From Hexactinellida sp. DTS-2022 (taxonomy: Eukaryota > Porifera > Hexactinellida), in contig JAPNXP010000010.1 in NCBI GenBank assembly GCA_028753945.1, forward strand, positions 6,203,042 to 6,267,041: 64,000 nt of DNA, in the 5' to 3' direction. Position numbers and translations under genes: made by a program. Below are positions 1-41,742 of this stretch, piece after piece. Below the pieces are notes generated by a model. It made no database searches and had not been told where the DNA came from. It worked only from the letters and a program-made list of their open reading frames with translations. Each line of letters begins with the position of its first letter. Position 1 is the first letter of the stretch.

Positions 1-91
1 GGAATTCATTAAATCCACCCATAACATATAGAAACATTTGTCCTTTCTATTTATAGCACATTCTACTAAACAAGAACCTTGTTAGTATAAT

Positions 92-118
92 ATTGTACGC
101 TTTTTGCGTACAATATAT
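92..118. repeat. Hairpin palindrome present in every satellite monomer (first copy shown)
   Basis: Each monomer contains ATATTGTACGC, a 5-nt loop (TTTTT or ATTTT), then GCGTACAATAT. This is a perfect 11-bp inverted repeat able to form a short stem-loop or cruciform. In the subtype with CTCGTTAG the right arm reads GCGTACATTAT, which shortens the perfect stem to 7 bp, so stem length varies in step with subtype. No coding or RNA-gene context surrounds it. A role is not shown by the sequence. Confidence 0.9.
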
Positions 119-140
119 AGCACATTATACTACCGTAGAC

Positions 141-158
141 CTTCGTTAGGATTCGGAA
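141..158 (+). other. CENP-B-box-like motif in satellite monomers (first copy shown)
   Basis: Nearly every monomer junction carries CTTCGTTAGGATTCGGA. The core bases required in the mammalian CENP-B box follow NTTCGNNNNANNCGGGN. This satellite motif fits NTTCGNNNNNANNCGGN, with one extra spacer base and CGG instead of CGGG. Many junctions, typically those after the CTCGTTAG subtype, read ATTCAGA and lose the CGG. So box-like and box-less monomers are interspersed. It is a resemblance and not a match; it may be chance. Confidence 0.35.
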
Positions 159-308
159 TTCATTAAATCCACCCATAACATATAGAAACATTTGTCCTTT
201 CTATTTATAGCACATTCTACTAAACAAGAACCTTGTTAGTATAATATTGTACGCTTTTTGCGTACAATATATAGCACATTATACTACAGTAGACCTTCGT
301 TAGGATTC

Positions 309-1852
309 GGAATTCATTAAATCCACCCATAACATATAGAAACATTTGTCCTTTCTATTTATAGCACATTCTACTAAACAAGAACAATGTGGTATAATAT
401 TGTACGCATTTTGCGTACAATATATAGCACATTATACTACCGTAGACCTTCGTTAGGATTCGGAATTAATTATATTCACCCATAAGATATTGAAACCATT
501 TATCCTTTCTATATAGTATAGCACATTCTACTAAACAAGAACCTTGTTAGTATAATATTGTACGCTTTTTGCGTACAATATATAGCACATTATACTACAG
601 TAGACCTTCGTTAGGATTCGGAATTCATTAAATCCACCCATAACATATAGAAACATTTGTCCTTTCTATTTATAGCACATTCTACTAAACAAGAACCTTG
701 TTAGTATAATATTGTACGCTTTTTGCGTACAATATATAGCACATTATACTACAGTGTACCTTCGTTAGGATTCGGAATTCACTATATCCACCCATAAGAT
801 ATTGAAACATTTGTCCTTTCTATTTATAGCACATTCTACTAAACAAGAACCTCGTTAGTATAATATTGTACGCATTTTGCGTACATTATATAGCAATTAT
901 ACTACAGTAGACCTTCGTTAGGATTCAGAATTCACTATATCCACCCATAACTTATAGAAACATTTGTCCTTTCTATTTATAGCACATTCTACTAAACAAG
1001 AACCTTGTTAGTATAATATTGTACGCTTTTTGCGTACAATATATAGCACATTATACTACAGTAGACCTTCGTTAGGATTCGGAATTCATTAAATCCACCC
1101 ATAACATATAGAAACATTTGTCCTTTCTATTTATAGCACATTCTACTAAACAAGAACAATGTGGTATAATATTGTACGCATTTTGCGTACAATATATAGC
1201 ACATTATACTACCGTAGACCTTCGTTAGGATTCGGAATTAATTATATTCACCCATAAGATATTGAAACCATTTATCCTTTCTATATAGTATAGCACATTC
1301 TACTAAACAAGAACCTTGTTAGTATAATATTGTACGCTTTTTGCGTACAATATATAGCACATTATACTACAGTAGACCTTCGTTAGGATTCGGAATTCAT
1401 TAAATCCACCCATAACATATAGAAACATTTGTCCTTTCTATTTATAGCACATTCTACTAAACAAGAACCTTGTTAGTATAATATTGTACGCTTTTTGCGT
1501 ACAATATATAGCACATTATACTACAGTGTACCTTCGTTAGGATTCGGAATTCACTATATCCACCCATAAGATATTGAAACATTTGTCCTTTCTATTTATA
1601 GCACATTCTACTAAACAAGAACCTCGTTAGTATAATATTGTACGCATTTTGCGTACATTATATAGCAATTATACTACAGTAGACCTTCGTTAGGATTCAG
1701 AATTCACTATATCCACCCATAACTTATAGAAACATTTGTCCTTTCTATTTATAGCACATTCTACTAAACAAGAACCTTGTTAGTATAATATTGTACGCTT
1801 TTTGCGTACATTATATAGCACATTATACTACAGTAGACCTTCGTTAGGATTC
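309..1852. repeat. Example higher-order repeat: two adjacent 772-bp five-monomer units
   Basis: Monomers at 309, 462, about 616, about 770 and about 924 form an ordered set of five subtypes. The same set follows at 1081, 1234, about 1389, about 1542 and about 1696. The two blocks read as near-identical, while neighbouring monomers within a block differ clearly. A third copy of this five-monomer order starts at 4328 and a fourth at 5100. Between 2627 and 4328 the cycle is expanded to 11 monomers by inserting other subtypes. This is the usual signature of multi-monomer amplification by unequal exchange or conversion. Confidence 0.85.
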
Positions 1853-4800
1853 AGAATTCATTATATTCACCCATAAGATATTGAAACATTTGTCCTTTTA
1901 ATATATAGCACATTCTACTAAACAAAAATCTTGTTAGTATAATATTGTACGCATTTTGCGTACAATATATAGCACATTATACTACAGTGTACCTTCGTTA
2001 GGATTCGGAATTCAATATATCCACCCATAAGATATTGAAACATTTGTCCTTTCTATTTATAGCACATTCTACTAAACAAGAACCTTGTTGGTACAATATT
2101 GTACGCATTTTGCGTACAATATATAGCACATTTTACTACAGTAGACCTTCGTTAGGATTCAGAATTCATTATATCCACCCATAAGATATTGAAACCATTT
2201 ATCCTTTCTATATAGTATAGCACATTCTACTAAACAAAAATCTTGTTAGTATAATATTGTACGCATTTTGCGTACAATATATAGCACATTATACTACAGT
2301 GTACCTTCGTTAGGATTCGGAATTCAATATATCCACCCATAAGATATTGAAACATTTGTCCTTTCTATTTATAGCACATTCTACTAAACAAGAACCTCGT
2401 TAGTATAATATTGTACGCATTTTGCGTACATTATATAGCACATTATACTACAGTAGACCTTCGTTAGGATTCAGAATTCACTATATCCACCCATAACTTA
2501 TAGAAACATTTGTCCTTTCTATTTATAGCACATTCTACTAAACAAGAACCTTGTTAGTATAATATTGTACGCTTTTTGCGTACAATATATAGCACATTAT
2601 ACTACAGTAGACCTTCGTTAGGATTCGGAATTCATTAAATCCACCCATAACATATAGAAACATTTGTCCTTTCTATTTATAGCACATTCTACTAAACAAG
2701 AACAATGTGGTATAATATTGTACGCATTTTGCGTACAATATATAGCACATTATACTACCGTAGACCTTCGTTAGGATTCGGAATTAATTATATTCACCCA
2801 TAAGATATTGAAACCATTTATCCTTTCTATATAGTATAGCACATTCTACTAAACAAGAACCTTGTTAGTATAATATTGTACGCTTTTTGCGTACAATATA
2901 TAGCACATTATACTACAGTAGACCTTCGTTAGGATTCGGAATTCATTAAATCCACCCATAACATATAGAAACATTTGTCCTTTCTATTTATAGCACATTC
3001 TACTAAACAAGAACCTTGTTAGTATAATATTGTACGCTTTTTGCGTACAATATATAGCACATTATACTACAGTAGACCTTCGTTAGGATTCGGAATTCAT
3101 TAAATCCACCCATAACATATAGAAACATTTGTCCTTTCTATTTATAGCACATTCTACTAAACAAGAACCTTGTTAGTATAATATTGTACGCTTTTTGCGT
3201 ACAATATATAGCACATTATACTACCGTAGACCTTCGTTAGGATTCGGAATTCATTAAATCCACCCATAACATATAGAAACATTTGTCCTTTCTATTTATA
3301 GCACATTCTACTAAACAAGAACCTTGTTAGTATAATATTGTATGCTTTTTGCGTACAATATATAGCACATTATACTACAGTGTACCTTCGTTAGGATTCG
3401 GAATTCACTATATCCACCCATAAGATATTGAAACATTTGTCCTTTCTATTTATAGCACATTCTACTAAACAAGAACCTCGTTAGTATAATATTGTACGCA
3501 TTTTGCGTACATTATATAGCACATTATACTACAGTAGACCTTCGTTAGGATTCAGAATTCATTATATTCACCCATAAGATATTGAAACATTTGTCCTTTT
3601 AATATATAGCACATTCTACTAAACAAAAATCTTGTTAGTATAATATTGTACGCATTTTGCGTACAATATATAGCACATTATACTACAGTGTACCTTCGTT
3701 AGGATTCGGAATTCAATATATCCACCCATAAGATATTGAAACATTTGTCCTTTCTATTTATAGCACATTCTACTAAACAAGAACCTTGTTGGTACAATAT
3801 TGTACGCATTTTGCGTACAATATATAGCACATTTTACTACAGTAGACCTTCGTTAGGATTCAGAATTCATTATATCCACCCATAAGATATTGAAACCATT
3901 TATCCTTTCTATATAGTATAGCACATTCTACTAAACAAAAATCTTGTTAGTATAATATTGTACGCATTTTGCGTACAATATATAGCACATTATACTACAG
4001 TGTACCTTCGTTAGGATTCGGAATTCAATATATCCACCCATAAGATATTGAAACATTTGTCCTTTCTATTTATAGCACATTCTACTAAACAAGAACCTCG
4101 TTAGTATAATATTGTACGCATTTTGCGTACATTATATAGCACATTATACTACAGTAGACCTTCGTTAGGATTCAGAATTCACTATATCCACCCATAACTT
4201 ATAGAAACATTTGTCCTTTCTATTTATAGCACATTCTACTAAACAAGAACCTTGTTAGTATAATATTGTACGCTTTTTGCGTACAATATATAGCACATTA
4301 TACTACAGTAGACCTTCGTTAGGATTCGGAATTCATTAAATCCACCCATAACATATAGAAACATTTGTCCTTTCTATTTATAGCACATTCTACTAAACAA
4401 GAACAATGTGGTATAATATTGTACGCATTTTGCGTACAATATATAGCACATTATACTACCGTAGACCTTCGTTAGGATTCGGAATTCATTATATTCACCC
4501 ATAAGATATTGAAACCATTTATCCTTTCTATATAGTATAGCACATTCTACTAAACAAGAACCTTGTTAGTATAATATTGTACGCTTTTTGCGTACAATAT
4601 ATAGCACATTATACTACAGTAGACCTTCGTTAGGATTCGGAATTCATTAAATCCACCCATAACATATAGAAACATTTGTCCTTTCTATTTATAGCACATT
4701 CTACTAAACAAGAACCTTGTTAGTATAATATTGTACGCTTTTTGCGTACAATATATAGCACATTATACTACAGTGTACCTTCGTTAGGATTCGGAATTCA

Positions 4801-7800
4801 CTATATCCACCCATAAGATATTGAAACATTTGTCCTTTCTATTTATAGCACATTCTACTAAACAAGAACCTCGTTAGTATAATATTGTACGCATTTTGCG
4901 TACATTATATAGCAATTATACTACAGTAGACCTTCGTTAGGATTCAGAATTCACTATATCCACCCATAACTTATAGAAACATTTGTCCTTTCTATTTATA
5001 GCACATTCTACTAAACAAGAACCTTGTTAGTATAATATTGTACGCTTTTTGCGTACAATATATAGCACATTATACTACAGTAGACCTTCGTTAGGATTCG
5101 GAATTCATTAAATCCACCCATAACATATAGAAACATTTGTCCTTTCTATTTATAGCACATTCTACTAAACAAGAACAATGTGGTATAATATTGTACGCAT
5201 TTTGCGTACAATATATAGCACATTATACTACCGTAGACCTTCGTTAGGATTCGGAATTAATTATATTCACCCATAAGATATTGAAACCATTTATCCTTTC
5301 TATATAGTATAGCACATTCTACTAAACAAGAACCTTGTTAGTATAATATTGTACGCTTTTTGCGTACAATATATAGCACATTATACTACAGTAGACCTTC
5401 GTTAGGATTCGGAATTCATTAAATCCACCCATAACATATAGAAACATTTGTCCTTTCTATTTATAGCACATTCTACTAAACAAGAACCTTGTTAGTATAA
5501 TATTGTACGCTTTTTGCGTACAATATATAGCACATTATACTACAGTGTACCTTCGTTAGGATTCGGAATTCACTATATCCACCCATAAGATATTGAAACA
5601 TTTGTCCTTTCTATTTATAGCACATTCTACTAAACAAGAACCTCGTTAGTATAATATTGTACGCATTTTGCGTACATTATATAGCAATTATACTACAGTA
5701 GACCTTCGTTAGGATTCAGAATTCACTATATCCACCCATAACTTATAGAAACATTTGTCCTTTCTATTTATAGCACATTCTACTAAACAAGAACCTTGTT
5801 AGTATAATATTGTACGCTTTTTGCGTACAATATATAGCACATTATACTACAGTAGACCTTCGTTAGGATTCGGAATTCATTAAATCCACCCATAACATAT
5901 AGAAACATTTGTCCTTTCTATTTATAGCACATTCTACTAAACAAGAACCTTGTTAGTATAATATTGTACGCTTTTTGCGTACAATATATAGCACATTATA
6001 CTACCGTAGACCTTCGTTAGGATTCGGAATTCATTATATTCACCCATAAGATATTGAAACCATTTATTCTTTCTATTTATTGCACATTCTACTAAACAAG
6101 AACCTTGTTAGTATAATATTGTACGCTTTTTGCGTACAATATATAGCACATTATACTACCGTAGACCTTCGTTAGGATTCGGAATTCATTATATTCACCC
6201 ATTATTGAAACCATTTATCCTTTCTATTTATAGCACATTCTAGTAAACAAGAACCTTGTTAGTATAATATTGTACGCTTTTTGCGTACAATATATAGCAC
6301 ATTATACTACAGTAGACCTTCGTTAGGATTCGGAATTCATTATATTCACCCATAAGATATTGAAACCATTTATCCTTTCTATATAGTATAGCACATTCTA
6401 CTAAACAAGAACCTTGTTAGTATAATATTGTACGCTTTTTGCGTACAATATATAGCACATTATACTACAGTAGACCTTCGTTAGGATTCGGAATTCATTA
6501 AATCCACCCATAACATATAGAAACATTTGTCCTTTCTATTTATAGCACATTCTACTAAACAAGAACCTTGTTAGTATAATATTGTACGCTTTTTGCGTAC
6601 AATATATAGCACATTATACTACAGTGTACCTTCGTTAGGATTCGGAATTCACTATATCCACCCATAAGATATTGAAACATTTGTCCTTTCTATTTATAGC
6701 ACATTCTACTAAACAAGAACCTCGTTAGTATAATATTGTACGCATTTTGCGTACATTATATAGCACATTATACTACAGTAGACCTTCGTTAGGATTCAGA
6801 ATTCATTATATTCACCCATAAGATATTGAAACATTTGTCCTTTTAATATATAGCACATTCTACTAAACAAAAATCTTGTTAGTATAATATTGTACGCATT
6901 TTGCGTACAATATATAGCACATTATACTACAGTGTACCTTCGTTAGGATTCGGAATTCAATATATCCACCCATAAGATATTGAAACATTTGTCCTTTCTA
7001 TTTATAGCACATTCTACTAAACAAGAACCTTGTTAGTATAATATTGTACGCTTTTTGCGTACAATATATAGCACATTATACTACAGTAGACCTTCGTTAG
7101 GATTCGGAATTCATTAAATCCACCCATAACATATAGAAACATTTGTCCTTTCTATTTATAGCACATTCTACTAAACAAGAACAATGTGGTATAATATTGT
7201 ACGCATTTTGCGTACAATATATAGCACATTATACTACCGTAGACCTTCGTTAGGATTCGGAATTCATTATATTCACCCATAAGATATTGAAACCATTTAT
7301 CCTTTCTATATAGTATAGCACATTCTACTAAACAAGAACCTTGTTAGTATAATATTGTACGCTTTTTGCGTACAATATATAGCACATTATACTACAGTAG
7401 ACCTTCGTTAGGATTCGGAATTCATTAAATCCACCCATAACATATAGAAACATTTGTCCTTTCTATTTATAGCACATTCTACTAAACAAGAACCTTGTTA
7501 GTATAATATTGTACGCTTTTTGCGTACAATATATAGCACATTATACTACAGTAGACCTTCGTTAGGATTCGGAATTCATTAAATCCACCCATAACATATA
7601 GAAACATTTGTCCTTTCTATTTATAGCACATTCTACTAAACAAGAACCTTGTTAGTATAATATTGTACGCTTTTTGCGTACAATATATAGCACATTATAC
7701 TACCGTAGACCTTCGTTAGGATTCGGAATTCATTATATTCACCCATAAGATATTGAAACCATTTATTCTTTCTATTTATTGCACATTCTACTAAACAAGA

Positions 7801-10800
7801 ACCTTGTTAGTATAATATTGTACGCTTTTTGCGTACAATATATAGCACATTATACTACCGTAGACCTTCGTTAGGATTCGGAATCATTATATTCACCCAT
7901 AAGATATTGAAACCATTTATCCTTTCTATTTATAGCACATTCTAGTAAACAAGAACCTTGTTAGTATAATATTGTACGCTTTTTGCGTACAATATATAGC
8001 ACATTATACTACAGTAGACCTTCGTTAGGATTCGGAATTCATTATATTCACCCATAAGATATTGAAACCATTTATCCTTTCTATATAGTATAGCACATTC
8101 TACTAAACAAGAACCTTGTTAGTATAATATTGTACGCTTTTTGCGTACAATATATAGCACATTATACTACAGTAGACCTTCGTTAGGATTCGGAATTCAT
8201 TAAATCCACCCATAACATATAGAAACATTTGTCCTTTCTATTTATAGCACATTCTACTAAACAAGAACCTTGTTAGTATAATATTGTACGCTTTTTGCGT
8301 ACAATATATAGCACATTATACTACAGTGTACCTTCGTTAGGATTCGGAATTCACTATATCCACCCATAAGATATTGAAACATTTGTCCTTTCTATTTATA
8401 GCACATTCTACTAAACAAGAACCTCGTTAGTATAATATTGTACGCATTTTGCGTACATTATATAGCACATTATACTACAGTAGACCTTCGTTAGGATTCA
8501 GAATTCATTATATTCACCCATAAGATATTGAAACATTTGTCCTTTTAATATATAGCACATTCTACTAAACAAAAATCTTGTTAGTATAATATTGTACGCA
8601 TTTTGCGTACAATATATAGCACATTATACTACAGTGTACCTTCGTTAGGATTCGGAATTCAATATATCCACCCATAAGATATTGAAACATTTGTCCTTTC
8701 TATTTATAGCACATTCTACTAAACAAGAACCTCGTTAGTATAATATTGTACGCATTTTGCGTACATTATATAGCACATTATACTACAGTAGACCTTCGTT
8801 AGGATTCAGAATTCACTATATCCACCCATAACTTATAGAAACATTTGTCCTTTCTATTTATAGCACATTCTACTAAACAAGAACCTTGTTAGTATAATAT
8901 TGTACGCTTTTTGCGTACAATATATAGCACATTATACTACAGTAGACCTTCGTTAGGATTCGGAATTCATTAAATCCACCCATAACATATAGAAACATTT
9001 GTCCTTTCTATTTATAGCACATTCTACTAAACAAGAACAATGTGGTATAATATTGTACGCATTTTGCGTACAATATATAGCACATTATACTACCGTAGAC
9101 CTTCGTTAGGATTCGGAATTCATTATATTCACCCATAAGATATTGAAACCATTTATCCTTTCTATATAGTATAGCACATTCTACTAAACAAGAACCTTGT
9201 TAGTATAATATTGTACGCTTTTTGCGTACAATATATAGCACATTATACTACAGTAGACCTTCGTTAGGATTCGGAATTCATTAAATCCACCCATAACATA
9301 TAGAAACATTTGTCCTTTCTATTTATAGCACATTCTACTAAACAAGAACCTTGTTAGTATAATATTGTACGCTTTTTGCGTACAATATATAGCACATTAT
9401 ACTACAGTGTACCTTCGTTAGGATTCGGAATTCACTATATCCACCCATAAGATATTGAAACATTTGTCCTTTCTATTTATAGCACATTCTACTAAACAAG
9501 AACCTCGTTAGTATAATATTGTACGCATTTTGCGTACATTATATAGCACATTATACTACAGTAGACCTTCGTTAGGATTCAGAATTCATTATATTCACCC
9601 ATAAGATATTGAAACATTTGTCCTTTTAATATATAGCACATTCTACTAAACAAAAATCTTGTTAGTATAATATTGTACGCATTTTGCGTACAATATATAG
9701 CACATTATACTACAGTGTACCTTCCTTAGGATTCGGAATTCAATATATCCACCCATAAGATATTGAAACATTTGTCCTTTCTATTTATAGCACATTCTAC
9801 TAAACAAGAACCTTGTTGGTACAATATTGTACGCATTTTGCGTACAATATATAGCACATTTTACTACAGTAGACCTTCGTTAGGATTCAGAATTCATTAT
9901 ATCCACCCATAAGATATTGAAACCATTTATCCTTTCTATATAGTATAGCACATTCTACTAAACAAAAATCTTGTTAGTATAATATTGTACGCATTTTGCG
10001 TACAATATATAGCACATTATACTACAGTGTACCTTCGTTAGGATTCGGAATTCAATATATCCACCCATAAGATATTGAAACATTTGTCCTTTCTATTTAT
10101 AGCACATTCTACTAAACAAGAACCTCGTTAGTATAATATTGTACGCATTTTGCGTACATTATATAGCACATTATACTACAGTAGACCTTCGTTAGGATTC
10201 AGAATTCACTATATCCACCCATAACTTATAGAAACATTTGTCCTTTCTATTTATAGCACATTCTACTAAACAAGAACCTTGTTAGTATAATATTGTACGC
10301 TTTTTGCGTACAATATATAGCACATTATACTACAGTAGACCTTCGTTAGGATTCGGAATTCATTAAATCCACCCATAACATATAGAAACATTTGTCCTTT
10401 CTATTTATAGCACATTCTACTAAACAAGAACAATGTGGTATAATATTGTACGCATTTTGCGTACAATATATAGCACATTATACTACCGTAGACCTTCGTT
10501 AGGATTCGGAATTCATTATATTCACCCATAAGATATTGAAACCATTTATCCTTTCTATATAGTATAGCACATTCTACTAAACAAGAACCTTGTTAGTATA
10601 ATATTGTACGCTTTTTGCGTACAATATATAGCACATTATACTACAGTAGACCTTCGTTAGGATTCGGAATTCATTAAATCCACCCATAACATATAGAAAC
10701 ATTTGTCCTTTCTATTTATAGCACATTCTACTAAACAAGAACCTTGTTAGTATAATATTGTACGCTTTTTGCGTACAATATATAGCACATTATACTACAG

Positions 10801-13800
10801 TGTACCTTCGTTAGGATTCGGAATTCATTATATTCACCCATAAGATATTGAAACCATTTATCCTTTCTATTTATAGCACATTCTACTAAACAAGAACCTT
10901 GTTAGTATAATATTGTACGCTTTTTGCGTACAATATATAGCACATTATACTACAGTAGACCTTCGTTAGGATTCGGAATTCATTAAATCCACCCATAACA
11001 TATAGAAACATTTGTCCTTTCTATTTATAGCACATTCTACTAAACAAGAACCTTGTTAGTATAATATTGTACGCTTTTTGCGTACAATATATAGCACATT
11101 ATACTACCGTAGACCTTCGTTAGGATTCGGAATTCATTATATTCACCCATAAGATATTGAAACCATTTATCCTTTCTATATAGTATAGCACATTCTACTA
11201 AACAAGAACCTTGTTAGTATAATATTGTACGCTTTTTGCGTACAATATATAGCACATTATACTACAGTAGACCTTCGTTAGGATTCGGAATTCATTAAAT
11301 CCACCCATAACATATAGAAACATTTGTCCTTTCTATTTATAGCACATTCTACTAAACAAGAACCTTGTTAGTATAATATTGTACGCTTTTTGCGTACAAT
11401 ATATAGCACATTATACTACAGTGTACCTTCGTTAGGATTCGGAATTCACTATATCCACCCATAAGATATTGAAACATTTGTCCTTTCTATTTATAGCACA
11501 TTCTACTAAACAAGAACCTCGTTAGTATAATATTGTACGCATTTTGCGTACATTATATAGCACATTATACTACAGTAGACCTTCGTTAGGATTCAGAATT
11601 CACTATATCCACCCATAACTTATAGAAACATTTGTCCTTTCTATTTATAGCACATTCTACTAAACAAGAACCTTGTTAGTATAATATTGTACGCTTTTTG
11701 CGTACAATATATAGCACATTATACTACAGTAGACCTTCGTTAGGATTCGGAATTCATTAAATCCACCCATAACATATAGAAACATTTGTCCTTTCTATTT
11801 ATAGCACATTCTACTAAACAAGAACCTTGTTAGTATAATATTGTACGCTTTTTGCGTACAATATATAGCACATTATACTACAGTAGACCTTCGTTAGGAT
11901 TCGGAATTCATTAAATCCACCCATAACATATAGAAACATTTGTCCTTTCTATTTATAGCACATTCTACTAAACAAGAACCTTGTTAGTATAATATTGTAC
12001 GCTTTTTGCGTACAATATATAGCACATTATACTACAGTGTACCTTCGTTTGGATTCGGAATTCACTATATCCACCCATAAGATATTGAAACATTTGTCCT
12101 TTCTATTTATAGCACATTCTACTAAACAAGAACCTCGTTAGTATAATATTGTACGCATTTTGCGTACATTATATAGCACATTATACTACAGTAGACCTTC
12201 GTTAGGATTCAGAATTCATTATATTCACCCATAAGATATTGAAACATTTGTCCTTTTAATATATAGCACATTCTACTAAACAAAAATCTTGTTAGTATAA
12301 TATTGTACGCATTTTGCGTACAATATATAGCACATTATACTACAGTGTACCTTCGTTAGGATTCAGAATTCAATATATCCACCCATAAGATATTGAAACA
12401 TTTGTCCTTTCTATTTATAGCACATTCTACTAAACAAGAACCTCGTTAGTATAATATTGTACGCATTTTGCGTACATTATATAGCACATTATACTACAGT
12501 AGACCTTCGTTAGGATTCAGAATTCACTATATCCACCCATAACTTATAGAAACATTTGTCCTTTCTATTTATAGCACATTCTACTAAACAAGAACCTTGT
12601 TAGTATAATATTGTACGCTTTTTGCGTACAATATATAGCACATTATACTACAGTGTACCTTCGTTAGGATTCGGAATTCACTATATCCACCCATAAGATA
12701 TTGAAACATTTGTCCTTTCTATTTATAGCACATTCTACTAAACAAGAACCTCGTTAGTATAATATTGTACGCATTTTGCGTACATTATATAGCACATTAT
12801 ACTACAGTAGACCTTCGTTAGGATTCAGAATTCATTATATTCACCCATAAGATATTGAAACATTTGTCCTTTTAATATATAGCACATTCTACTAAACAAA
12901 AATCTTGTTAGTATAATATTGTACGCATTTTGCGTACAATATATAGCACATTATACTACAGTGTACCTTCGTTAGGATTCGGAATTCAATATATCCACCC
13001 ATAAGATATTGAAACATTTGTCCTTTCTATTTATAGCACATTCTACTAAACAAGAACCTCGTTAGTATAATATTGTACGCATTTTGCGTACATTATATAG
13101 CACATTATACTACAGTAGACCTTCGTTAGGATTCAGAATTCACTATATCCACCCATAACTTATAGAAACATTTGTCCTTTCTATTTATAGCACATTCTAC
13201 TAAACAAGAACCTTGTTAGTATAATATTGTACGCTTTTTGCGTACAATATATAGCACATTATACTACAGTGTACCTTCGTTAGGATTCGGAATTCACTAT
13301 ATCCACCCATAAGATATTGAAACATTTGTCCTTTCTATTTATAGCACATTCTACTAAACAAGAACCTCGTTAGTATAATATTGTACGCATTTTGCGTACA
13401 TTATATAGCACATTATACTACAGTAGACCTTCGTTAGGATTCAGAATTCACTATATCCACCCATAACTTATAGAAACATTTGTCCTTTCTATTTATAGCA
13501 CATTCTACTAAACAAGAACCTTGTTAGTATAATATTGTACGCTTTTTGCGTACAATATATAGCACATTATACTACAGTAGACCTTCGTTAGGATTCGGAA
13601 TTCATTAAATCCACCCATAACATATAGAAACATTTGTCCTTTCTATTTATAGCACATTCTACTAAACAAGAACCTTGTTAGTATAATATTGTACGCTTTT
13701 TGCGTACAATATATAGCACATTATACTACAGTAGACCTTCGTTAGGATTCGGAATTCATTAAATCCACCCATAACATATAGAAACATTTGTCCTTTCTAT

Positions 13801-16800: not shown

Positions 16801-19800
16801 TATATAGCACATTATACTACCGTAGACCTTCGTTAGGATTCGGAATTCATTATATTCACCCATAAGATATTGAAACCATTTATTCCTTCTATTTATTGCA
16901 CATTCTACTAAACAAGAACCTTGTTAGTATAATATTGTACGCTTTTTGCGTACAATATATAGCACATTATACTACCGTAGACCTTCGTTAGGATTCGGAA
17001 TTCATTATATTCACCCATAAGCTATTGAAACCATTTATCCTTTCTATTTATAGCACATTCTACTAAACAAGAACCTTGTTAGTATAATATTGTACGCTTT
17101 TTGCGTACAATATATAGCACATTATACTACAGTAGACCTTTGTTAGGATTCGGAATTCATTAAATCCACCCATAACATATAGAAACATTTGTCCTTTCTA
17201 TTTATAGCACATTCTACTAAACAAGAACCTTGTTAGTATAATATTGTACGCTTTTTGCGTACAATATATAGCACATTATACTACCGTAGACCTTCGTTAG
17301 GATTCGGAATTCATTATATTCACCCATAAGATATTGAAACCATTTATCCTTTCTATATAGTATAGCACATTCTACTAAACAAGAACCTTGTTAGTATAAT
17401 ATTGTACGCTTTTTGCGTACAATATATAGCACATTATACTACAGTAGACCTTCGTTAGGATTCGGAATTCATTAAATCCACCCATAACATATAGAAACAT
17501 TTGTCCTTTCTATTTATAGCACATTCTACTAAACAAGAACCTTGTTAGTATAATATTGTACGCTTTTTGCGTACAATATATAGCACATTATACTACCGTA
17601 GACCTTCGTTAGGATTCGGAATTCACTATATCCACCCATAAGATATTGAAACATTTGTCCTTTCTATTTATAGCACATTCTACTAAACAAGAACCTCGTT
17701 AGTATAATATTGTACGCATTTTGCGTACATTATATAGCACATTATACTACAGTAGACCTTCGTTAGGATTCAGAATTCACTATATCCACCCATAACTTAT
17801 AGAAACATTTGTCCTTTCTATTTATAGCACATTCTACTAAACAAGAACCTTGTTAGTATAATATTGTACGCTTTTTCCGTACAATATATAGCACATTATA
17901 CTACAGTAGACCTTCGTTAGGATTCGGAATTCATTAAATCCACCCATAACATATAGAAACATTTGTCCTTTCTATTTATAGCACATTCTACTAAACAAGA
18001 ACCTTGTTAGTATAATATTGTACGCTTTTTGCGTACAATATATAGCACATTATACTACAGTAGACCTTCGTTAGGATTCGGAATTCATTAAATCCACCCA
18101 TAACATATAGAAACATTTGTCCTTTCTATTTATAGCACATTCTACTAAACAAGAACCTTGTTAGTATAATATTGTACGCTTTTTGCGTACAATATATAGC
18201 ACATTATACTACAGTAGACCTTCGTTAGGATTCGGAATTCATTAAATCCACCCATAACATATAGAAACATTTGTCCTTTCTATTTATAGCACATTCTACT
18301 AAACAAGAACCTTGTTAGTATAATATTGTACGCTTTTTGCGTACAATATATAGCACATTATACTACAGTGTACCTTCGTTAGGATTCGGAATTCACTATA
18401 TCCACCCATAAGATATTGAAACATTTGTCCTTTCTATTTATAGCACATTCTACTAAACAAGAACCTCGTTAGTATAATATTGTACGCATTTTGCGTACAT
18501 TATATAGCACATTATACTACAGTAGACCTTCGTTAGGATTCAGAATTCACTATATCCACCCATAAGATATTGAAACCATTTATCCTTTCTATATAGTATA
18601 GCACATTCTACTAAACAAGAACCTTGTTAGTATAATATTGTACGCTTTTTGCGTACAATATATAGCACATTATACTACAGTAGACCTTCGTTAGGATTCG
18701 GAATTCATTAAATCCACCCATAACATATAGAAACATTTGTCCTTTCTATTTATAGCACATTCTACTAAACAAGAACCTTGTTAGTATAATATTGTACGCT
18801 TTTTGCGTACAATATATAGCACATTATACTACAGTGTACCTTCGTTAGGATTCGGAATTCACTATATCCACCCATAAGATATTGAAACATTTGTCCTTTC
18901 TATTTATAGCACATTCTACTAAACAAGAACCTCGTTAGTATAATATTGTACGCATTTTGCGTACATTATATAGCACATTATACTACAGTAGACCTTCGTT
19001 AGGATTCAGAATTCACTATATCCACCCATAACTTATAGAAACATTTGTCCTTTCTATTTATAGCACATTCTACTAAACAAGAACCTCGTTAGTATAATAT
19101 TGTACGCATTTTGCGTACATTATATAGCACATTATACTACAGTAGACCTTCGTTAGGATTCAGAATTCATTATATTCACCCATAAGATATTGAAACCATT
19201 TATTCTTTCTATTTATTGCACATTCTACTAAACAAGAACCTTGTTAGTATAATATTGTACGCTTTTTGCGTACAATATATAGCACATTATACTACCGTAG
19301 ACCTTCGTTAGGATTCGGAATTCATTATATTCACCCATAAGCTATTGAAACCATTTATCCTTTCTATTTATAGCACATTCTACTAAACAAGAACCTCGTT
19401 AGTATAATATTGTACGCATTTTGCGTACATTATATAGCACATTATACTACAGTAGACCTTCGTTAGGATTCAGAATTCATTATATTCACCCATAAGATAT
19501 TGAAACATTTGTCCTTTTAATATATAGCACATTCTACTAAACAAAAATCTTGTTAGTATAATATTGTACGCATTTTGCGTACAATATATAGCACATTATA
19601 CTACAGTGTACCTTCGTTAGGATTCGGAATTCATTAAATCCACCCATAACATATAGAAACATTTGTCCTTTCTATTTATAGCACATTCTACTAAACAAGA
19701 ACCTTGTTAGTATAATATTGTACGCTTTTTGCGTACAATATATAGCACATTATACTACAGTAGACCTTCGTTAGGATTCGGAATTCATTATATTCACCCA

Positions 19801-22800
19801 TAAGATATTGAAACCATTTATTCTTTCTATTTATTGCACATTCTACTAAACAAGAACCTTGTTGGTATAATATTGTACGCTTTTTGCGTACAATATATAG
19901 CACATTATACTACAGTAGACCTTCGTTAGGATTCAGAATTCACTATATCCACCCATAACTTATAGAAACATTTGTCCTTTCTATTTATAGCACATTCTAC
20001 TAAACAAGAACCTTGTTAGTATAATATTGTACGCTTTTTGCGTACAATATATAGCACATTATACTACAGTAGACCTTCGTTAGGATTCGGAATTCATTAA
20101 ATCCACCCATAACATATAGAAACATTTGTCCTTTCTATTTATAGCACATTCTACTAAACAAGAACAATGTGGTATAATATTGTACGCATTTTGCGTACAA
20201 TATATAGCACATTATACTACCGTAGACCTTCGTTAGGATTCGGAATTCATTATATTCACCCATAAGATATTGAAACCATTTATCCTTTCTATATAGTATA
20301 GCACATTCTACTAAACAAGAACCTTGTTAGTATAATATTGTACGCTTTTTGCGTACAATATATAGCACATTATACTACAGTAGACCTTCGTTAGGATTCG
20401 GAATTCATTAAATCCACCCATCACATATAGAAACATTTGTCCTTTCTATTTATAGCACATTCTACTAAACAAGAACCTTGTTAGTATAATATTGTACGCT
20501 TTTTGCGTACAATATATAGCACATTATACTACAGTGTACCTTCGTTAGGATTCGGAATTCACTATATCCACCCATAATATATTGAAACATTTGTCCTTTC
20601 TATTTATAGCACATTCTACTAAACAAGAACCTCGTTAGTATAATATTGTACGCATTTTGCGTACATTATATAGCACATTATACTACAGTAGACCTTCGTT
20701 AGGATTCAGAATTCACTATATCCACCCATAACTTATAGAAACATTTGTCCTTTCTATTTATAGCACATTCTACTAAACAAGAACCTCGTTAGTATAATAT
20801 TGTACGCATTTTGCGTACATTATATAGCACATTATACTACAGTAGACCTTCGTTAGGATTCAGAATTCACTATATCCACCCATAACTTATAGAAACATTT
20901 GTCCTTTCTATTTATAGCACATTCTACTAAACAAGAACCTTGTTAGTATAATATTGTACGCTTTTTGCGTACAATATATAGCACATTATACTACAGTGTA
21001 CCTTCGTTAGGATTCGGAATTCACTATATCCACCCATAAGATATTGAAACATTTGTCCTTTCTATTTATAGCACATTCTACTAAACAAGAACCTCGTTAG
21101 TATAATATTGTACGCATTTTGCGTACATTATATAGCACATTATACTACAGTAGACCTTCGTTAGGATTCAGAATTCACTATATCCACCCATAACTTATAG
21201 AAACATTTGTCCTTTCTATTTATAGCACATTCTACTAAACAAGAACCTTGTTAGTATAATATTGTACGCTTTTTGCGTACAATATATAGCACATTATACT
21301 ACAGTAGACCTTCGTTAGGATTCGGAATTCATTAAATCCACCCATAACATATAGAAACATTTGTCCTTTCTATTTATAGCACATTCTACTAAACAAGAAC
21401 AATGTGGTATAATATTGTACGCATTTTGCGTACAATATATAGCACATTATACTACCGTAGACCTTCGTTAGGATTCGGAATTCATTATATTCACCCATAA
21501 GATATTGAAACCATTTATCCTTTCTATATAGTATAGCACATTCTACTAAACAAGAACCTTGTTAGTATAATATTGTACGCTTTTTGCGTACAATATATAG
21601 CACATTATACTACAGTAGACCTTCGTTAGGATTCGGAATTCATTAAATCCACCCATAACATATAGAAACATTTGTCCTTTCTATTTATAGCACATTCTAC
21701 TAAACAAGAACCTTGTTAGTATAATATTGTACGCTTTTTGCGTACAATATATAGCACATTATACTACAGTGTACCTTCGTTAGGATTCGGAATTCACTAT
21801 ATCCACCCATAAGATATTGAAACATTTGTCCTTTCTATTTATAGCACATTCTACTAAACAAGAACCTCGTTAGTATAATATTGTACGCATTTTGCGTACA
21901 TTATATAGCACATTATACTACAGTAGACCTTCGTTAGGATTCAGAATTCACTATATCCACCCATAACTTATAGAAACATTTTTCCTTTCTATTTATAGCA
22001 CATTCTACTAAACAAGAACCTTGTTAGTATAATATTGTACGCTTTTTGCGTACAATATATAGCACATTATACTACAGTAGACCTTCGTTAGGATTCGGAA
22101 TTCATTAAATCCACCCATAACATATAGAAACATTTGTCCTTTCTATTTATAGCACATTCTACTAAACAAGAACCTTGTTAGTATAATATTGTACACTTTT
22201 TGCGTACAATATATAGCACATTATACTACAGTGTACCTTCGTTAGGATTCGGAATTCACTATATCCACCCATAAGATATTGAAACATTTGTCCTTTCTAT
22301 TTATAGCACATTCTACTAAACAAGAACCTCGTTAGTATAATATTGTACGCATTTTGCGTACATTATATAGCACATTATACTACAGTAGACCTTCGTTAGG
22401 ATTCAGAATTCATTATATTCACCCATAAGATATTGAAACATTTGTCCTTTTAATATATAGCACATTCTACTAAACAAAAATCTTGTTAGTATAATATTGT
22501 ACGCATTTTGCGTACAATATATAGCACATTATACTACAGTGTACCTTCGTTAGTATTCGGAATTCAATATATCCACCCATAAGATATTGAAACATTTGTC
22601 CTTTCTATTTATAGCACATTCTACTAAACAAGAACCTCGTTAGTATAATATTGTACGCATTTTGCGTACATTATATAGCACATTATACTACAGTAGACCT
22701 TCGTTAGGATTCAGAATTCACTATATCGACCCATAACTTATAGAAACATTTGTCCTTTCTATTTATAGCACATTCTACTAAACAAGAACCTTGTTAGTAT

Positions 22801-25800
22801 AATATTGTACGCTTTTTGCGTACAATATATAGCACATTATACTACAGTGTACCTTCGTTAGGATTCGGAATTCACTATATCCACCCATAAGATATTGAAA
22901 CATTTGTCCTTTCTATTTATAGCACATTCTACTAAACAAGAACCTCGTTAGTATAATATTGTACGCATTTTGCGTACATTATATAGCACATTATACTACA
23001 GTAGACCTTCGTTAGGATTCAGAATTCATTATATTCACCCATAAGATATTGAAACATTTGTCCTTTTAATATATAGCACATTCTACTAAACAAAAATCTT
23101 GTTAGTATAATATTGTACGCATTTTGCGTACAATATATAGCACATTATACTACAGTGTACCTTCGTTAGGATTCGGAATTCAATATATCCACCCATAAGA
23201 TATTGAAACATTTGTCCTTTCTATTTATAGCACATTCTACTAAACAAGAACCTCGTTAGTATAATATTGTACGCATTTTGCGTACATTATATAGCACATT
23301 ATACTACAGTAGACCTTCGTTAGGATTCAGAATTCACTATATCCACCCATAACTTATAGAAACATTTGTCCTTTCTATTTATAGCACATTCTACTAAACA
23401 AGAACCTTGTTAGTATAATATTGTACGCTTTTTGCGTACAATATATAGCACATTATACTACAGTAAACCTTCGTTAGGATTCGGAATTCATTAAATCCAC
23501 CCATAACATATAGAAACATTTGTCCTTTCTATTTATAGCACATTCTACTAAACAAGAACAATGTGGTATAATATTGTACGCATTTTGCGTACAATATATA
23601 GCACATTATACTACCGTAGACCTTCGTTAGGATTCGGAATTCATTATATTCACCCATAAGATATTGAAACCATTTATCCTTTCTATATAGTATAGCACAT
23701 TCTACTAAACAAGAACCTTGTTAGTATAATATTGTACGCTTTTTGCGTACAATATATAGCACATTATACTACAGTAGACCTTCGTTAGGATTCGGAATTC
23801 ATTAAATCCACCCATAACATATAGAAACATTTGTCCTTTCTATTTATAGCACATTCTACTAAACAAGAACCTTGTTAGTATAATATTGTACGCTTTTTGC
23901 GTACAATATATAGCACATTATACTACAGTGTACCTTCGTTAGGATTCGGAATTCACTATATCCACCCATAAGATATTGAAACATTTGTCCTTTCTATTTA
24001 TAGCACATTCTACTAAACAAGAACCTCGTTAGTATAATATTGTACGCATTTTGCGTACATTATATAGCACATTATACTACAGTAGACCTTCGTTAGGATT
24101 CAGAATTCACTATATCCACCCATAACTTATAGAAACATTTGTCCTTTCTATTTATAGCACATTCTACTAAACAAGAACCTTGTTAGTATAATATTGTACG
24201 CTTTTTGCGTACAATATATAGCACATTATACTACAGTAGACCTTCGTTAGGATTCGGAATTCATTAAATCCACCCATAACATATAGAAACATTTGTCCTT
24301 TCTATTTATAGCACATTCTACTAAACAAGAACCTTGTTAGTATAATATTGTACGCTTTTTGCGTACAATATATAGCACATTATACTACCGTAGACCTTCG
24401 TTAGGATTCGGAATTCATTATATTCACCCATAAGATATTGAAACCATTTATCCTTTCTATATAGTATAGCACATTCTACTAAACAAGAACCTTGTTAGTA
24501 TAATATTGTACGCTTTTTGCGTACAATATATAGCACATTATACTACAGTAGACCTTCGTTAGGATTCGGAATTCATTAAATCCACCCATAACATATAGAA
24601 ACATTTGTCCTTTCTATTTATAGCACATTCTACTAAACAAGAACCTTGTTAGTATAATATTGTACGCTTTTTGCGTACAATATATAGCACATTATACTAC
24701 CGTAGACCTTCGTTAGGATTCGGAATTCATTATATTCACCCATAAGATATTGAAACCATTTATCCTTTCTATATAGTATAGCACATTCTACTAAACAAGA
24801 ACCTTGTTAGTATAATATTGTACGCTTTTTGCGTACAATATATAGCACATTATACTACAGTAGACCTTCGTTAGGATTCGGAATTCATTAAATCCACCCA
24901 TAACATATAGAAACATTTGTCCTTTCTATTTATAGCACATTCTACTAAACAAGAACCTTGTTAGTATAATATTGTACGCTTTTTGCGTACAATATATAGC
25001 ACATTATACTACAGTGTACCTTCGTTAGGATTCGGAATTCACTATATCCACCCATAAGATATTGAAACATTTGTCCTTTCTATTTATAGCACATTCTACT
25101 AAACAAGAACCTCGTTAGTATAATATTGTACGCATTTTGCGTACATTATATAGCACATTATACTACAGTAGACCTTCGTTAGAATTCAGAATTCACTATA
25201 TCCACCCATAACTTATAGAAACATTTGTCCTTTCTATTTATAGCACATTCTACTAAACAAGAACCTTGTTAGTATAATATTGTACGCTTTTTGCGTACAA
25301 TATATAGCACATTATACTACAGTAGACCTTCGTTAGGATTCGGAATTCATTAAATCCACCCATAACATATAGAAACATTTGTCCTTTCTATTTATAGCAC
25401 ATTCTACTAAACAAGAACCTTGTTAGTATAATATTGTACGCTTTTTGCGTACAATATATAGCACATTATACTACAGTAGACCTTCGTTAGGATTCGGAAT
25501 TCATTAAATCCACCCATAACATATAGAAACATTTGTCCTTTCTATTTATAGCACATTCTACTAAACAAGAACCTTGTTAGTATAATATTGTACGCTTTTT
25601 GCGTACAATATATAGCACATTATACTACAGTAGACCTTCGTTAGGATTCGGAATTCATTAAATCCACCCATAACATATAGAAACATTTGTCCATTCTATT
25701 TATAGCACATTCTACTAAACAAGAACCTTGTTAGTATAATATTGTACGCTTTTTGCGTACAATATATAGCACATTATACTACAGTGTACCTTCGTTAGGA

Positions 25801-28800
25801 TTCGGAATTCACTATATCCACCCATAAGATATTGAAACATTTGTCCTTTCTATTTATAGCACATTCTACTAAACAAGAACCTCGTTAGTATAATATTGTA
25901 CGCATTTTGCGTACATTATATAGCACATTATACTACAGTAGACCTTCGTTAGGATTCAGAATTCATTATATTCACCCATAAGATATTGAAACATTTGTCC
26001 TTTTAATATATAGCACATTCTACTAAACAAAAATCTTGTTAGTATAATATTGTACGCATTTTGCGTACAATATATAGCACATTATACTACAGTGTACCTT
26101 CGTTAGGATTCGGAATTCAATATATCCACCCATAAGATATTGAAACATTTGTCCTTTCTATTTATAGCACATTCTACTAAACAAGAACCTCGTTAGTATA
26201 ATATTGTACGCATTTTGCGTACATTATATAGCACATTATACTACAGTAGACCTTCGTTAGGATTCAGAATTCACTATATCCACCCATAACTTATAGAAAC
26301 ATTTGTCCTTTCTATTTATAGCACATTCTACTAAACAAGAACCTTGTTAGTATAATATTGTACGCTTTTTGCGTACAATATATAGCACATTATACTACAG
26401 TGTACCTTCGTTAGGATTCGGAATTCACTATATCCACCCATAAGATATTGAAACATTTGTCCTTTCTATTTATAGCACATTCTACTAAACAAGAACCTCG
26501 TTAGTATAATATTGTACGCATTTTGCGTACATTATATAGCACATTATACTACAGTAGACCTTCGTTAGGATTCAGAATTCACTATATCCACCCATAACTT
26601 ATAGAAACATTTGTCCTTTCTATTTATAGCACATTCTACTAAACAAGAACCTTGTTAGTATAATATTGTACGCTTTTTGCGTACAATATATAGCACATTA
26701 TACTACAGTAGACCTTCGTTAGGATTCGGAATTCATTAAATCCACCCATAACATATAGAAACATTTGTCCTTTCTATTTATAGCACATTCTACTAAACAA
26801 GAACCTTGTTAGTATAATATTGTACGCTTTTTGCGTACAATATATAGCACATTATACTACCGTAGACCTTCGTTAGGATTCGGAATTCATTATATTCACC
26901 CATAAGATATTGAAACCATTTATCCTTTCTATTTATAGCACATTCTACTAAACAAGAACCTTGTTAGTATAATATTGTACGCTTTTTGCGTACAATATAT
27001 AGCACATTATACTACAGTAGACCTTCGTTAGGATTCGGAATTCATTAAATCCACCCATAACATATAGAAACATTTGTCCTTTCTATTTATAGCACATTCT
27101 ACTAAACAAGAACCTTGTTAGTATAATATTGTACGCTTTTTGCGTACAATATATAGCACATTATACTACCGTAGACCTTCGTTAGGATTCGGAATTCATT
27201 ATATTCACCCATAAGATATTGAAACCATTTATCCTTTCTATATAGTATAGCACATTCTACTAAACAAGAACCTTGTTAGTATAATATTGTACGCTTTTTG
27301 CGTACAATATATAGCACATTATACTACAGTAGACCTTCGTTAGGATTCGGAATTCATTAAATCCACCCATAACATATAGAAACATTTGTCCTTTCTATTT
27401 ATAGCACATTCTACTAAACAAGAACCTTGTTAGTATAATATTGTACGCTTTTTGCGTACAATATATAGCACATTATACTACAGTGTACCTTCGTTAGGAT
27501 TCGGAATTCACTATATCCACCCATAAGATATTGAAACATTTGTCCTTTCTATTTATAGCACATTCTACTAAACAAGAACCTCGTTAGTATAATATTGTAC
27601 GCATTTTGCGTACATTATATAGCACATTATACTACAGTAGACCTTCGTTAGGATTCAGAATTCACTATATCCACCCATAACTTATAGAAACATTTGTCCT
27701 TTCTATTTATAGCACATTCTACTAAACAAGAACCTTGTTAGTATAATATTGTACGCTTTTTGCGTACAATATATAGCACATTATACTACAGTAGACCTTC
27801 GTAGGATTCGGAATTCATTAAATCCACCCATAACATATAGAAACATTTGTCCTTTCTATTTATAGCACATTCTACTAAACAAGAACCTTGTTAGTATAAT
27901 ATTGTACGCTTTTTGCGTACAATATATAGCACATTATACTACCGTAGACCTTCGTTAGGATTCGGAATTCATTATATTCACCCATAAGATATTGAAACCA
28001 TTTATCCTTTCTATATAGTATAGCACATTCTACTAAACAAGAACCTTGTTAGTATAATATTGTACGCTTTTTGCGTACAATATATAGCACATTATACTAC
28101 AGTAGACCTTCGTTAGGATTCGGAATTCATTAAATCCACCCATAACATATAGAAACATTTGTCCTTTCTATTTATAGCACATTCTACTAAACAAGAACCT
28201 TGTTAGTATAATATTGTACGCTTTTTGCGTACAATATATAGCACATTATACTACAGTAGACCTTCGTTAGGATTCGGAATTCATTAAATCCACCCATAAC
28301 ATATAGAAACATTTGTCCTTTCTATTTATAGCACATTCTACTAAACAAGAACCTTGTTAGTATAATATTGTACGCTTTTTGCGTACAATATATAGCACAT
28401 TATACTACCGTAGACCTTCGTTAGGATTCGGAATTCATTATATTCACCCATAAGATATTGAAACCATTTATTCTTTCTATTTATTGCACATTCTACTAAA
28501 CAAGAACCTTGTTAGTATAATATTGTACGCATTTTGCGTACAATATATTGCACAGTAAACTACAGTAGACCTTCGTTAGGATTCAGAATTCACTATATCC
28601 ACCCATAAGATATTGAAACCATTTATTCTTTCTATTTATTGCACATTCTACTAAACAAGAACCTTGTTAGTATAATATTGTACGCATTTTGCGTACAATA
28701 TATTGCACAGTAAACTACAGTAGACCTTCGTTAGGATTCAGAATTCACTATATCCACCCATAACATATAGAAACATTTGTCCTTTCTATTTATAGCACAT

Positions 28801-29935
28801 TCTACTAAACAAGAACCTTGTTAGTATAATATTGTACGCTTTTTGCGTACAATATATAGCACATTATACTACAGTAGACCTTCGTTAGGATTCAGAATTC
28901 ATTAAATCCACCCATAACATATAGAAACATTTGTCCTTTCTATTTATAGCACATTCTACTAAACAAGAACAATGTGGTATAATATTGTACGCATTTTGCG
29001 TACAATATATAGCACATTATACTACAGTAGACCTTCGTTAGGATTCAGAATTCATTAAATCCACCATAACATATAGAAACATTTGTCCTTTCTATTTATA
29101 GCACATTCTACTAAACAAGAACCTTGTTAGTATAATATTGTACGCTTTTTGCGTACAATATATAGCACATTATACTACAGTGTACCTTCGTTAGGATTCG
29201 GAATTCACTATATCCACCCATAAGATATTGAAACATTTGTCCTTTCTATTTATAGCACATTCTACTAAACAAGAACCTCGTTAGTATAATATTGTACGCA
29301 TTTTGCGTACATTATATAGCACATTATACTACAGTAGACCTTCGTTAGGATTCAGAATTCACTATATCCACCCATAACTTATAGAAACATTTGTCCTTTC
29401 TATTTATAGCACATTCTACTAAACAAGAACCTTGTTAGTATAATATTGTACGCTTTTTGCGTACAATATATAGCACATTATACTACAGTAGACCTTCGTT
29501 AGGATTCGGAATTCATTAAATCCACCCATAACATATAGAAACATTTGTCCTTTCTATTTATAGCACATTCTACTAAACAAGAACCTTGTTAGTATAATAT
29601 TGTACGCTTTTTGCGTACAATATATACCACATTATACTACCGTAGACCTTCGTTAGGATTCGGAATTCATTATATTCACCCATAAGATATTGAAACCATT
29701 TATCCTTTCTATATAGTATAGCACATTCTACTAAACAAGAACCTTGTTAGTATAATATTGTACGCTTTTTGCGTACAATATATAGCACATTATACTACAG
29801 TAGACCTTCGTTAGGATTCGGAATTCATTAAATCCACCCATAACATATAGAAACATTTGTCCTTTCTATTTATAGCACATTCTACTAAACAAGAACCTTG
29901 TTAGTATAATATTGTACGCTTTTTGCGTACAATAT

Positions 29936-30051
29936 CCCTCGGCTGGCTTGGGGTAAAAGGTATAAATAGAAAAACCCCACTTTCACTTTCACTTTCAATT
30001 GAAATTCAATTAACTTTCAGTTTCAATTTTACATTCCTAGCCAGACGAGGG
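29936..30051. mobile_element. 116-bp inverted-repeat element inserted in the satellite
   Basis: The satellite is interrupted once, just after the right hairpin arm. The insert begins CCCTCGGCTGGCT and ends AGCCAGACGAGGG, which are inverted repeats matching at 12 of 13 positions. Flanking ATAT at 29932-29935 and 30052-30055 is a 4-bp target duplication relative to uninterrupted monomers, though the AT-repeat context leaves the exact register open. The interior has CACTTT/CTTTCA runs and no coding capacity. A diverged relative in reverse orientation lies near 61660-61740. The superfamily is not determined. Confidence 0.85.
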
Positions 30052-31218
30052 ATATATAGCACATTATACTACAGTAGACCTTCGTTAGGATTCGGAATTC
30101 ATTAAATCCACCCATAACATATAGAAACATTTGTCCTTTCTATTTATAGCACATTCTACTAAACAAGAACCTTGTTAGTATAATATTGTACGCTTTTTGC
30201 GTACAATATATAGCACATTATACTACCGTAGACCTTCGTTAGGATTCGGAATTCATTATATTCACCCATAAGATATTGAAACCATTTATTCTTTCTATTT
30301 ATTGCACATTCTACTAAACAAGAACCTTGTTAGTATAATATTGTACGCTTTTTGCGTACAATATATAGCACATTATACTACCGTAGACCTTCGTTAGGAT
30401 TCGGAATTCACTATATCACCCATAAGATATTGAAACCATTTATTCTTTCTATTTATTGCACATTCTACTAAACAAGAACCTTGTTAGTATAATATTGTAC
30501 GCATTTTGCGTACAATATATTGCACAGTAAACTACAGTAGACCTTCGTTAGGATTCAGAATTCACTATATCCACCCATAACATATAGAAACATTTGTCCT
30601 TTCTATTTATAGCACATTCTACTAAACAAGAACCTTGTTAGTATAATATTGTACGCTTTTTGCGTACAATATATAGCACATTATACTACAGTAGACCTTC
30701 GTTAGGATTCAGAATTCATTAAATCCACCCATAACATATAGAAACATTTGTCCTTTCTATTTATAGCACATTCTACTAAACAAGAACAATGTGGTATAAT
30801 ATTGTACGCATTTTGCGTACAATATATAGCACATTATACTACAGTAGACCTTCGTTAGGATTCAGAATTCATTAAATCCACCATAACATATAGAAACATT
30901 TGTCCTTTCTATTTATAGCACATTCTACTAAACAAGAACCTCGTTAGTATAATATTGTGCTCATTTTGCGTACATATATAGCACATTATACTACAGTGGA
31001 CCTTCGTTAGGATTCGGAATTCACTATATCCACCCATAACTTATAGAAACATTTGTCCTTTCTATTTATAGCACATTCTACTAAACAAGAACCTTGTTAG
31101 TATAATATTTTTCGATTTTGGCGTACATTATATAGCACATTATACTACAGTAGACCTTCGTTAGGATTAGAAATTCATTAAATCCACCCATAACATATTG
31201 ATACCATTTATCCTTTCT

Positions 31219-31275
31219 GCTCTTAATTGATTAATTAAGGTTTCATTGTAGTACTTCCTATTAACAGAGCTACTA
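31219..31275. mobile_element. Element fragment at the right end of the satellite
   Basis: At about 31219 the monomer breaks off in the middle (after ATCCTTTCT) and passes into GCTCTTAATTGATTAATTAA, then a stretch ending in TTCCTATTAACAGAGC. The same segment recurs at about 50737-50787 and, reversed, at about 55966-56020 and 63335-63360. There it belongs to the CAGTAGA...-ended element family. The array edge therefore coincides with a dispersed element. Confidence 0.6.
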
Positions 31276-31291
31276 TATATAATAGTGTTAC

Positions 31292-37686: not shown

Positions 37687-41742
<4,056 letters not shown>

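Follow-up and report, generated by a model that had tools for sequence, protein, structure and literature searches.

A satellite array with a conserved palindromic box on one chromosome of a hexactinellid sponge, and its relatives as candidate centromeric or pericentromeric repeats

The DNA considered here is a stretch of 64,000 nucleotides (the window; C2:6,203,042-6,267,041) from the assembly GCA_028753945.1 of Hexactinellida sp. DTS-2022, and its most prominent feature is a tandem satellite array that lies among receptor-like genes. C1 to C18 denote the 18 contigs of the assembly, which are treated as chromosomes; together they amount to 112.4 Mb, in contigs of 2.6-17.6 Mb, a size that agrees with the compact invertebrate genome supposed in a preliminary description made from the letters of the window. 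That description also placed the end of a large array near position 31,219, and this was borne out: a tandem repeat with a period of 154 and 93% matches spans positions 1-29,935 and 30,052-31,218. Reading of the upstream DNA placed the start of the array 5.6 kb to the left of the window, at about C2:6,197,413. The whole array of 36.8 kb comprises 237 units, all arranged head-to-tail, and is complete in the assembly with unique flanks on both sides. An exact 17-bp box, GTACGC-W-TTTT-GCGTAC, is present in 232 of the units. The features of the array within the window are as follows.

1..31218, plus strand: satellite array of ~154-bp units with one insert, extending left to ~C2:6,197,413 (window repeat analysis and upstream DNA)
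95..111, plus strand: first intact palindromic box in the window, GTACGC-TTTTT-GCGTAC, as an example (read from the sequence)
132..150, plus strand: first copy of the element-end-related motif ACCGTAGACCTTCGTTAGG, as an example from half A (read from the sequence and compared with the C2 consensus)
29936..30051, no strand: 116-bp insert inside one unit, with terminal inverted repeats of ~16 bp and ATAT on either side

Part of the insert has a second match of 60 bp (85%) at 61,726-61,667 of the window. An Rfam scan of the window at the gathering threshold returned no matches. Tandem arrays are prone to assembly error, and the repeats might have been collapsed or misplaced; this is very improbable here, as the region holds no N and has unique sequence on either side, its 62 distinct units stand in a structured order, and diverged relatives exist on 14 other chromosomes.

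The preliminary description had proposed that the units are grouped into repeating sets of 5, 10 and 11, a multi-scale higher-order repeat (HOR) of the kind known from alpha satellite. The order of 236 units, sorted into 18 clusters, was therefore examined by comparing the frequency of same-cluster pairs at each lag with 500 shuffles. At lag 11 this frequency (0.244) exceeded the shuffle maximum of 0.213, as did those at lags 21 and 36; lag 5 (0.212) was borderline, with a shuffle mean of 0.142 and a maximum of 0.221, and lag 10 (0.142) equalled the shuffle mean and was not enriched. Hence, a set of 11 stood as a local duplication only, the set of 5 remained borderline and the set of 10 did not stand. 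Clustering of the monomers did reveal an order that is not random: repeated words of five units covered 130 positions, compared with at most 14 in 300 shuffles. Most of that order was reproduced by a first-order neighbour model, under which such words covered a mean of 112 and a maximum of 150 positions. Exact runs 300 bp or longer covered 2196, 1255 and 986 of 36,848 bp at lags of 772, 1546 and 1701, respectively, and long exact repeats were found at many other lags, one of which (4791; 2520 bp) surpassed lag 772. No fixed multi-unit period along the array was found, many other lags being equally strong. Nor did units within a period clearly differ more from one another than the period's own copies do; distinct units are on average 93.8% alike (minimum 88%), compared with about 70% for the units within alpha-satellite HORs according to a passage in PMC8122249. 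The lag, word and exact-run analyses thus ruled out a regular HOR of 5, 10 and 11 for the array in its entirety. Given the lag results, the neighbour model, the exact-run coverage and the high identity of the units, the unit order at C2 is a mosaic of local duplications with no stable multi-register HOR. Higher-order structure outside the primates, which had been thought notable, would not in itself be unusual, since the same source reports dimers and trimers from a leaf beetle (PMC8122249, in part). The interest of the C2 array comes instead from its distribution and its box.

Genome-wide, a 29-bp pattern containing the box was found in 1214 forward and 1471 reverse copies, and its backward control in none. 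Loci were placed by means of rarer box variants, box-to-box spacings and then patterns outside the box, giving eight complete lists; the remaining seven chromosomes were sampled by 112 probes of 250-300 bp, four of which landed in arrays. Relatives of the C2 array were located on 15 of the 18 chromosomes, mostly in one region situated 0.1-0.5 Mb from an end.

C1: 9.88-10.02 of 17.64 Mb, interstitial (pattern)
C2: 6.197-6.234 of 6.335 Mb (pattern)
C4: 5.75 of 5.91 Mb (among the matches listed, and by sequence reading)
C5: 5.059-5.069 of 5.377 Mb (pattern)
C6: 0.14 Mb (probe)
C8: 2.74 of 3.08 Mb (probe)
C9: 2.24-2.33 of 2.56 Mb (pattern)
C10: 0.20 Mb (probe)
C11: 0.135-0.170 and 15.34-15.42 of 15.56 Mb (pattern)
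C12: 6.27-6.33 and 6.45, with an outlier at 6.10, of 6.57 Mb (pattern)
C13: 5.41-5.43 and 5.52-5.53 of 5.64 Mb (pattern)
C15: 0.14 Mb (probe)
C16: 0.15-0.17 of 5.58 Mb (pattern)
C17: 4.54-4.55 of 4.90 Mb (pattern)
C18: 0.18-0.32 of 6.62 Mb (pattern)

The units of these arrays fall into several lengths: about 88 bp in families of C6, C11 and C15; 145 bp in C13; 154-158 bp in C2, C5, C8, C10, C13, C17 and C18; and 175-184 bp in C1, C4, C9, C11, C12 and C16. A full unit consists of two related halves of 88 bp, the homology of which was better than 200 shuffles in all seven families tested. Only one half carries the box, and the second half has unrelated sequence at that position (C2 and C5, with anchors outside the box); the 88-bp families represent single boxed halves. 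Consensuses of 19 of the 20 families (C11a was left out) are 77-97% alike, with a mean of 88%.

Between the families, no stretch is better conserved than the palindrome GTACGC-WTTTT-GCGTAC, and this is true also of six that were found without the box pattern. These box-independent families comprise C6, C8, C10 and C15, found by probes, and C11L and C16, found by a pattern outside the box; C12b was kept out because its locus had first been chosen by the box pattern. The exact box is present in 77 of their 93 units and in five of the six consensuses, the exception being C11L. Among the distinct units of the six families, differences from the consensus affected 11 of 816 sites within the box and 208 of 6077 outside it (p 0.0009 in Fisher's test, a value that is not strict given the relatedness of the units). 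The box was likewise the top window of 17 bp, with a conservation of 0.99 compared with 0.91 for gap-free columns and 0.76 for all other columns. Several counts tell against conservation. With C4, the exact box was found at 11 of 20 anchors, and with C5 at 37 of 102, 48 of the remainder being half-B or edge matches and 17 having one mismatch; the totals for anchors outside the box also count half-B units and a small number of array edges. The count for C11a (2 of 15) is unreliable, as its consensus was mis-split. A single strand of the box folds to a hairpin with an 11-bp stem, better than 200 shuffles, and the box is probably a protein-binding site. The CENP-B box was tried as a candidate identity and rejected, the best alignment in each of the 20 family consensuses matching 5-6 of the nine essential bases; matches to the whole CENP-B box were 10-13 of 17, the best being C4 with 13, a value equalled in 1 of 300 shuffles.

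A second conserved motif is shared with dispersed elements. With up to four mismatches allowed, ACAGTAGAACCTCGTTAATACG was found 29 times in 147 kb of non-array DNA of C2 and C5, and its reversed control not at all. Six pairs of these matches delimit elements of 146-190 bp with inverted ends, which have TA at both ends in five cases and at one end in the sixth.

C2:6,176,143-6,176,315 and C5:5,050,955-5,051,144 (examples): dispersed inverted-repeat elements with ends TACAGTAGAACCTCGTTAGTACGAACAC, beside TA

Inverted ends beside TA are the organisation of a Tc1/mariner-like miniature element, the superfamily to which these copies are provisionally assigned. Over its first 19 bp, the element end matches 19 of the 20 satellite families at 14-18 positions (0-4 of 400 shuffles being as good); in the C11b family the motif was not matched (11 of 19). 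Counted from where the box begins, the motif starts after 36-37 bases in half A or some 88-92 bases further on in half B, with its direction unchanged, and in the C10 family at 103. The satellite unit does not have the terminal inverted repeats of the element at both ends, and the motif is in direct orientation in the halves. Such a shared motif, together with a palindrome having a constant 5-bp middle, would be expected of a selfish, transposon-derived satellite in which the box represents abutted element ends and boxed units were amplified by a transposase or a replication hairpin, with no chromosomal role. That account is improbable: none of the dispersed elements examined ends in the box sequence, and the complete lists reveal the arrays to be confined, not dispersed. 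The CENP-B box is linked to the ends of pogo elements, and CENP-B itself to a domesticated pogo-like transposase, in published work; the parallel with that history is only suggestive because the essential CENP-B bases are not matched. Elsewhere in the window, positions 43,963-44,212 hold a tandem of 43/83-bp units that appear by eye to be made of the same element end, and this may be a second, local case of an element end becoming a tandem repeat. A 17-bp tandem, TACGAATTTCTGGTTAA, at 48,308-48,362 resembles, by eye, internal sequence of the miniature elements.

The preliminary description had raised a possible link to the centromere. It has since gained support from the arrays on 15 of 18 chromosomes and from the conserved box, and it remains putative. 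The family as a whole is held, with slightly better than even confidence, to be a centromeric or pericentromeric satellite, of which the C2 array itself is a candidate only. In that case most of the chromosomes would be acrocentric, the arrays would mark their centromeric or pericentromeric regions, and the C2 array would be the member of that chromosome. The box would be retained for its use in organising centromeric chromatin, whether by a DNA-binding protein or through a local cruciform, and the halves may derive from the end of a Tc1/mariner-like miniature element or may have captured such an end. Growth and homogenisation of the arrays would proceed by unequal exchange, which is proposed to account for the mosaic of repeated words.

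Several observations weigh against this centromeric assignment. On C3, C7 and C14, 26, 27 and 27 sparse probes, respectively, detected no array and just matches of 18-29 bp. C11 has arrays at both ends, and on several chromosomes (C11, C12, C13) there are two blocks in opposite orientation. The box has decayed on C1, where it is exact in 23 of 68 units, and is exact in 6 of 11 units of C11L. Degenerate isolated units near the opposite ends of C2 (C2:19,801-21,000, one unit interrupted by other sequence) and C6 (C6:5,351,501-5,352,700), 20 and 15 kb from the end, suggest exchange between chromosome ends. Finally, genes lie close to the C2 array, which seems, if the transcript is spliced as described below, to occupy a 37.3-kb intron of a receptor-like gene.

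The dual arrays of C11, the relics and the close genes, together with the position of all arrays found except that of C1 within 0.1-0.5 Mb of an end, are points in favour of a satellite of distal, subtelomere-side heterochromatin that has no kinetochore function, moves from one chromosome end to another through ectopic exchange and persists by homogenisation, the internal copy on C1 being the trace of an old end-to-end fusion. This alternative is possible though doubtful. Complete pattern lists and probes place the arrays of 14 of the 15 chromosomes in one region only, the C1 array is internal, and homogenisation alone fails to explain the constraint on the box. Chromosome ends have another tandem repeat, found at 13 of the 18 contig ends tested; the end pieces tested contained no TTAGGG or TTAGG doublets. 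A subtelomeric satellite would occur at both ends and adjacent to telomeres; here, with most opposite ends covered by patterns or a few probes only, both ends were seen to be occupied on C11 alone, and arrays lie 0.1-0.5 Mb inside.

If the centromeric or pericentromeric assignment is adopted, likenesses to known systems can be drawn. As in primate alpha satellite, described in part in PMC8122249, the units are AT-rich, near nucleosome length and present as chromosome-specific variants, and as in its dimeric form a 17-bp box occurs in one of two units. Unlike alpha satellite, the box here is palindromic and unrelated in sequence, the half-units are of 88 bp, there is no regular HOR and the arrays span about 10-150 kb; the likeness is one of organisation. 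Mouse minor satellite, on telocentric chromosomes, also forms an array near one end and carries a box, which in mouse binds protein (PMC8122249, in part); the present arrays differ in lying 0.1-0.5 Mb inside the end, in varying between chromosomes and in having an unrelated box. Satellites derived from miniature inverted-repeat elements, such as bivalve BIV160 and oyster HindIII in the portion of PMC6947457 available, similarly share sequence of such an element with the tandem unit. Here, however, the shared part of the element end amounts to no more than about 19 bp, inverted pairs of element ends are absent from the units, and the conserved box does not come from the elements seen. Helitron/Helentron-associated repeats of Drosophila and bivalves also form tandem units with a hairpin; the present arrays, unlike them, mostly keep to a single region of a chromosome. 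No sponge centromere sequence was reported in the titles or abstract openings of the literature searched, outside of which most subscription journals lie. It is rather unlikely, although conceivable, that a box-based centromere satellite arose separately in a non-bilaterian animal, paralleling that of mammals, complete with a dimer, transposon-end motifs, a box in alternate halves and a presumed dedicated, possibly transposase-derived reader protein. A boxed satellite on most chromosomes would be a testable system for the independent rise of binding boxes and alternating dimers, as well as for a gene that apparently extends across an array of this kind.

To the left of the array, C2:6,143,000-6,197,000 contains a cluster of receptor-like genes with immunoglobulin (Ig)-like and fibronectin-III-like domains, a membrane span and a tyrosine-bearing tail. 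A divergent member of the cluster lies to the right of the array on the minus strand, at 31,251-33,427 of the window.

31251..31460, minus strand: third extracellular-domain exon of the receptor-like gene (exon end inferred at 31,292; GT donor from 31,291)
32168..32428, minus strand: fibronectin-III-like exon, same gene (43% identity in tblastn with a gene of the left flank)
32999..33319, minus strand: Ig-like exon, same gene (Ig recognised by eye)

The exon earlier placed less than 150 bp from the array was located, with 73 bases between the array and its probable end at 31,292, the splice site being inferred. The domain names are tentative, since Pfam gave no match for two right-hand open frames, including the Ig-like exon, and a sub-threshold fn3 match only for one left-flank copy. 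Across the array, a threonine-rich exon begins at an AG acceptor that precedes C2:6,197,050, with a phase matching that of the third-domain exon, and a further frame closes with a hydrophobic stretch followed by a stop. The genome contains at least 16 homeodomain matches, a small count suggestive of a sponge-like non-bilaterian, and a V-ATPase-like gene occupies 37,672-41,742 of the window.

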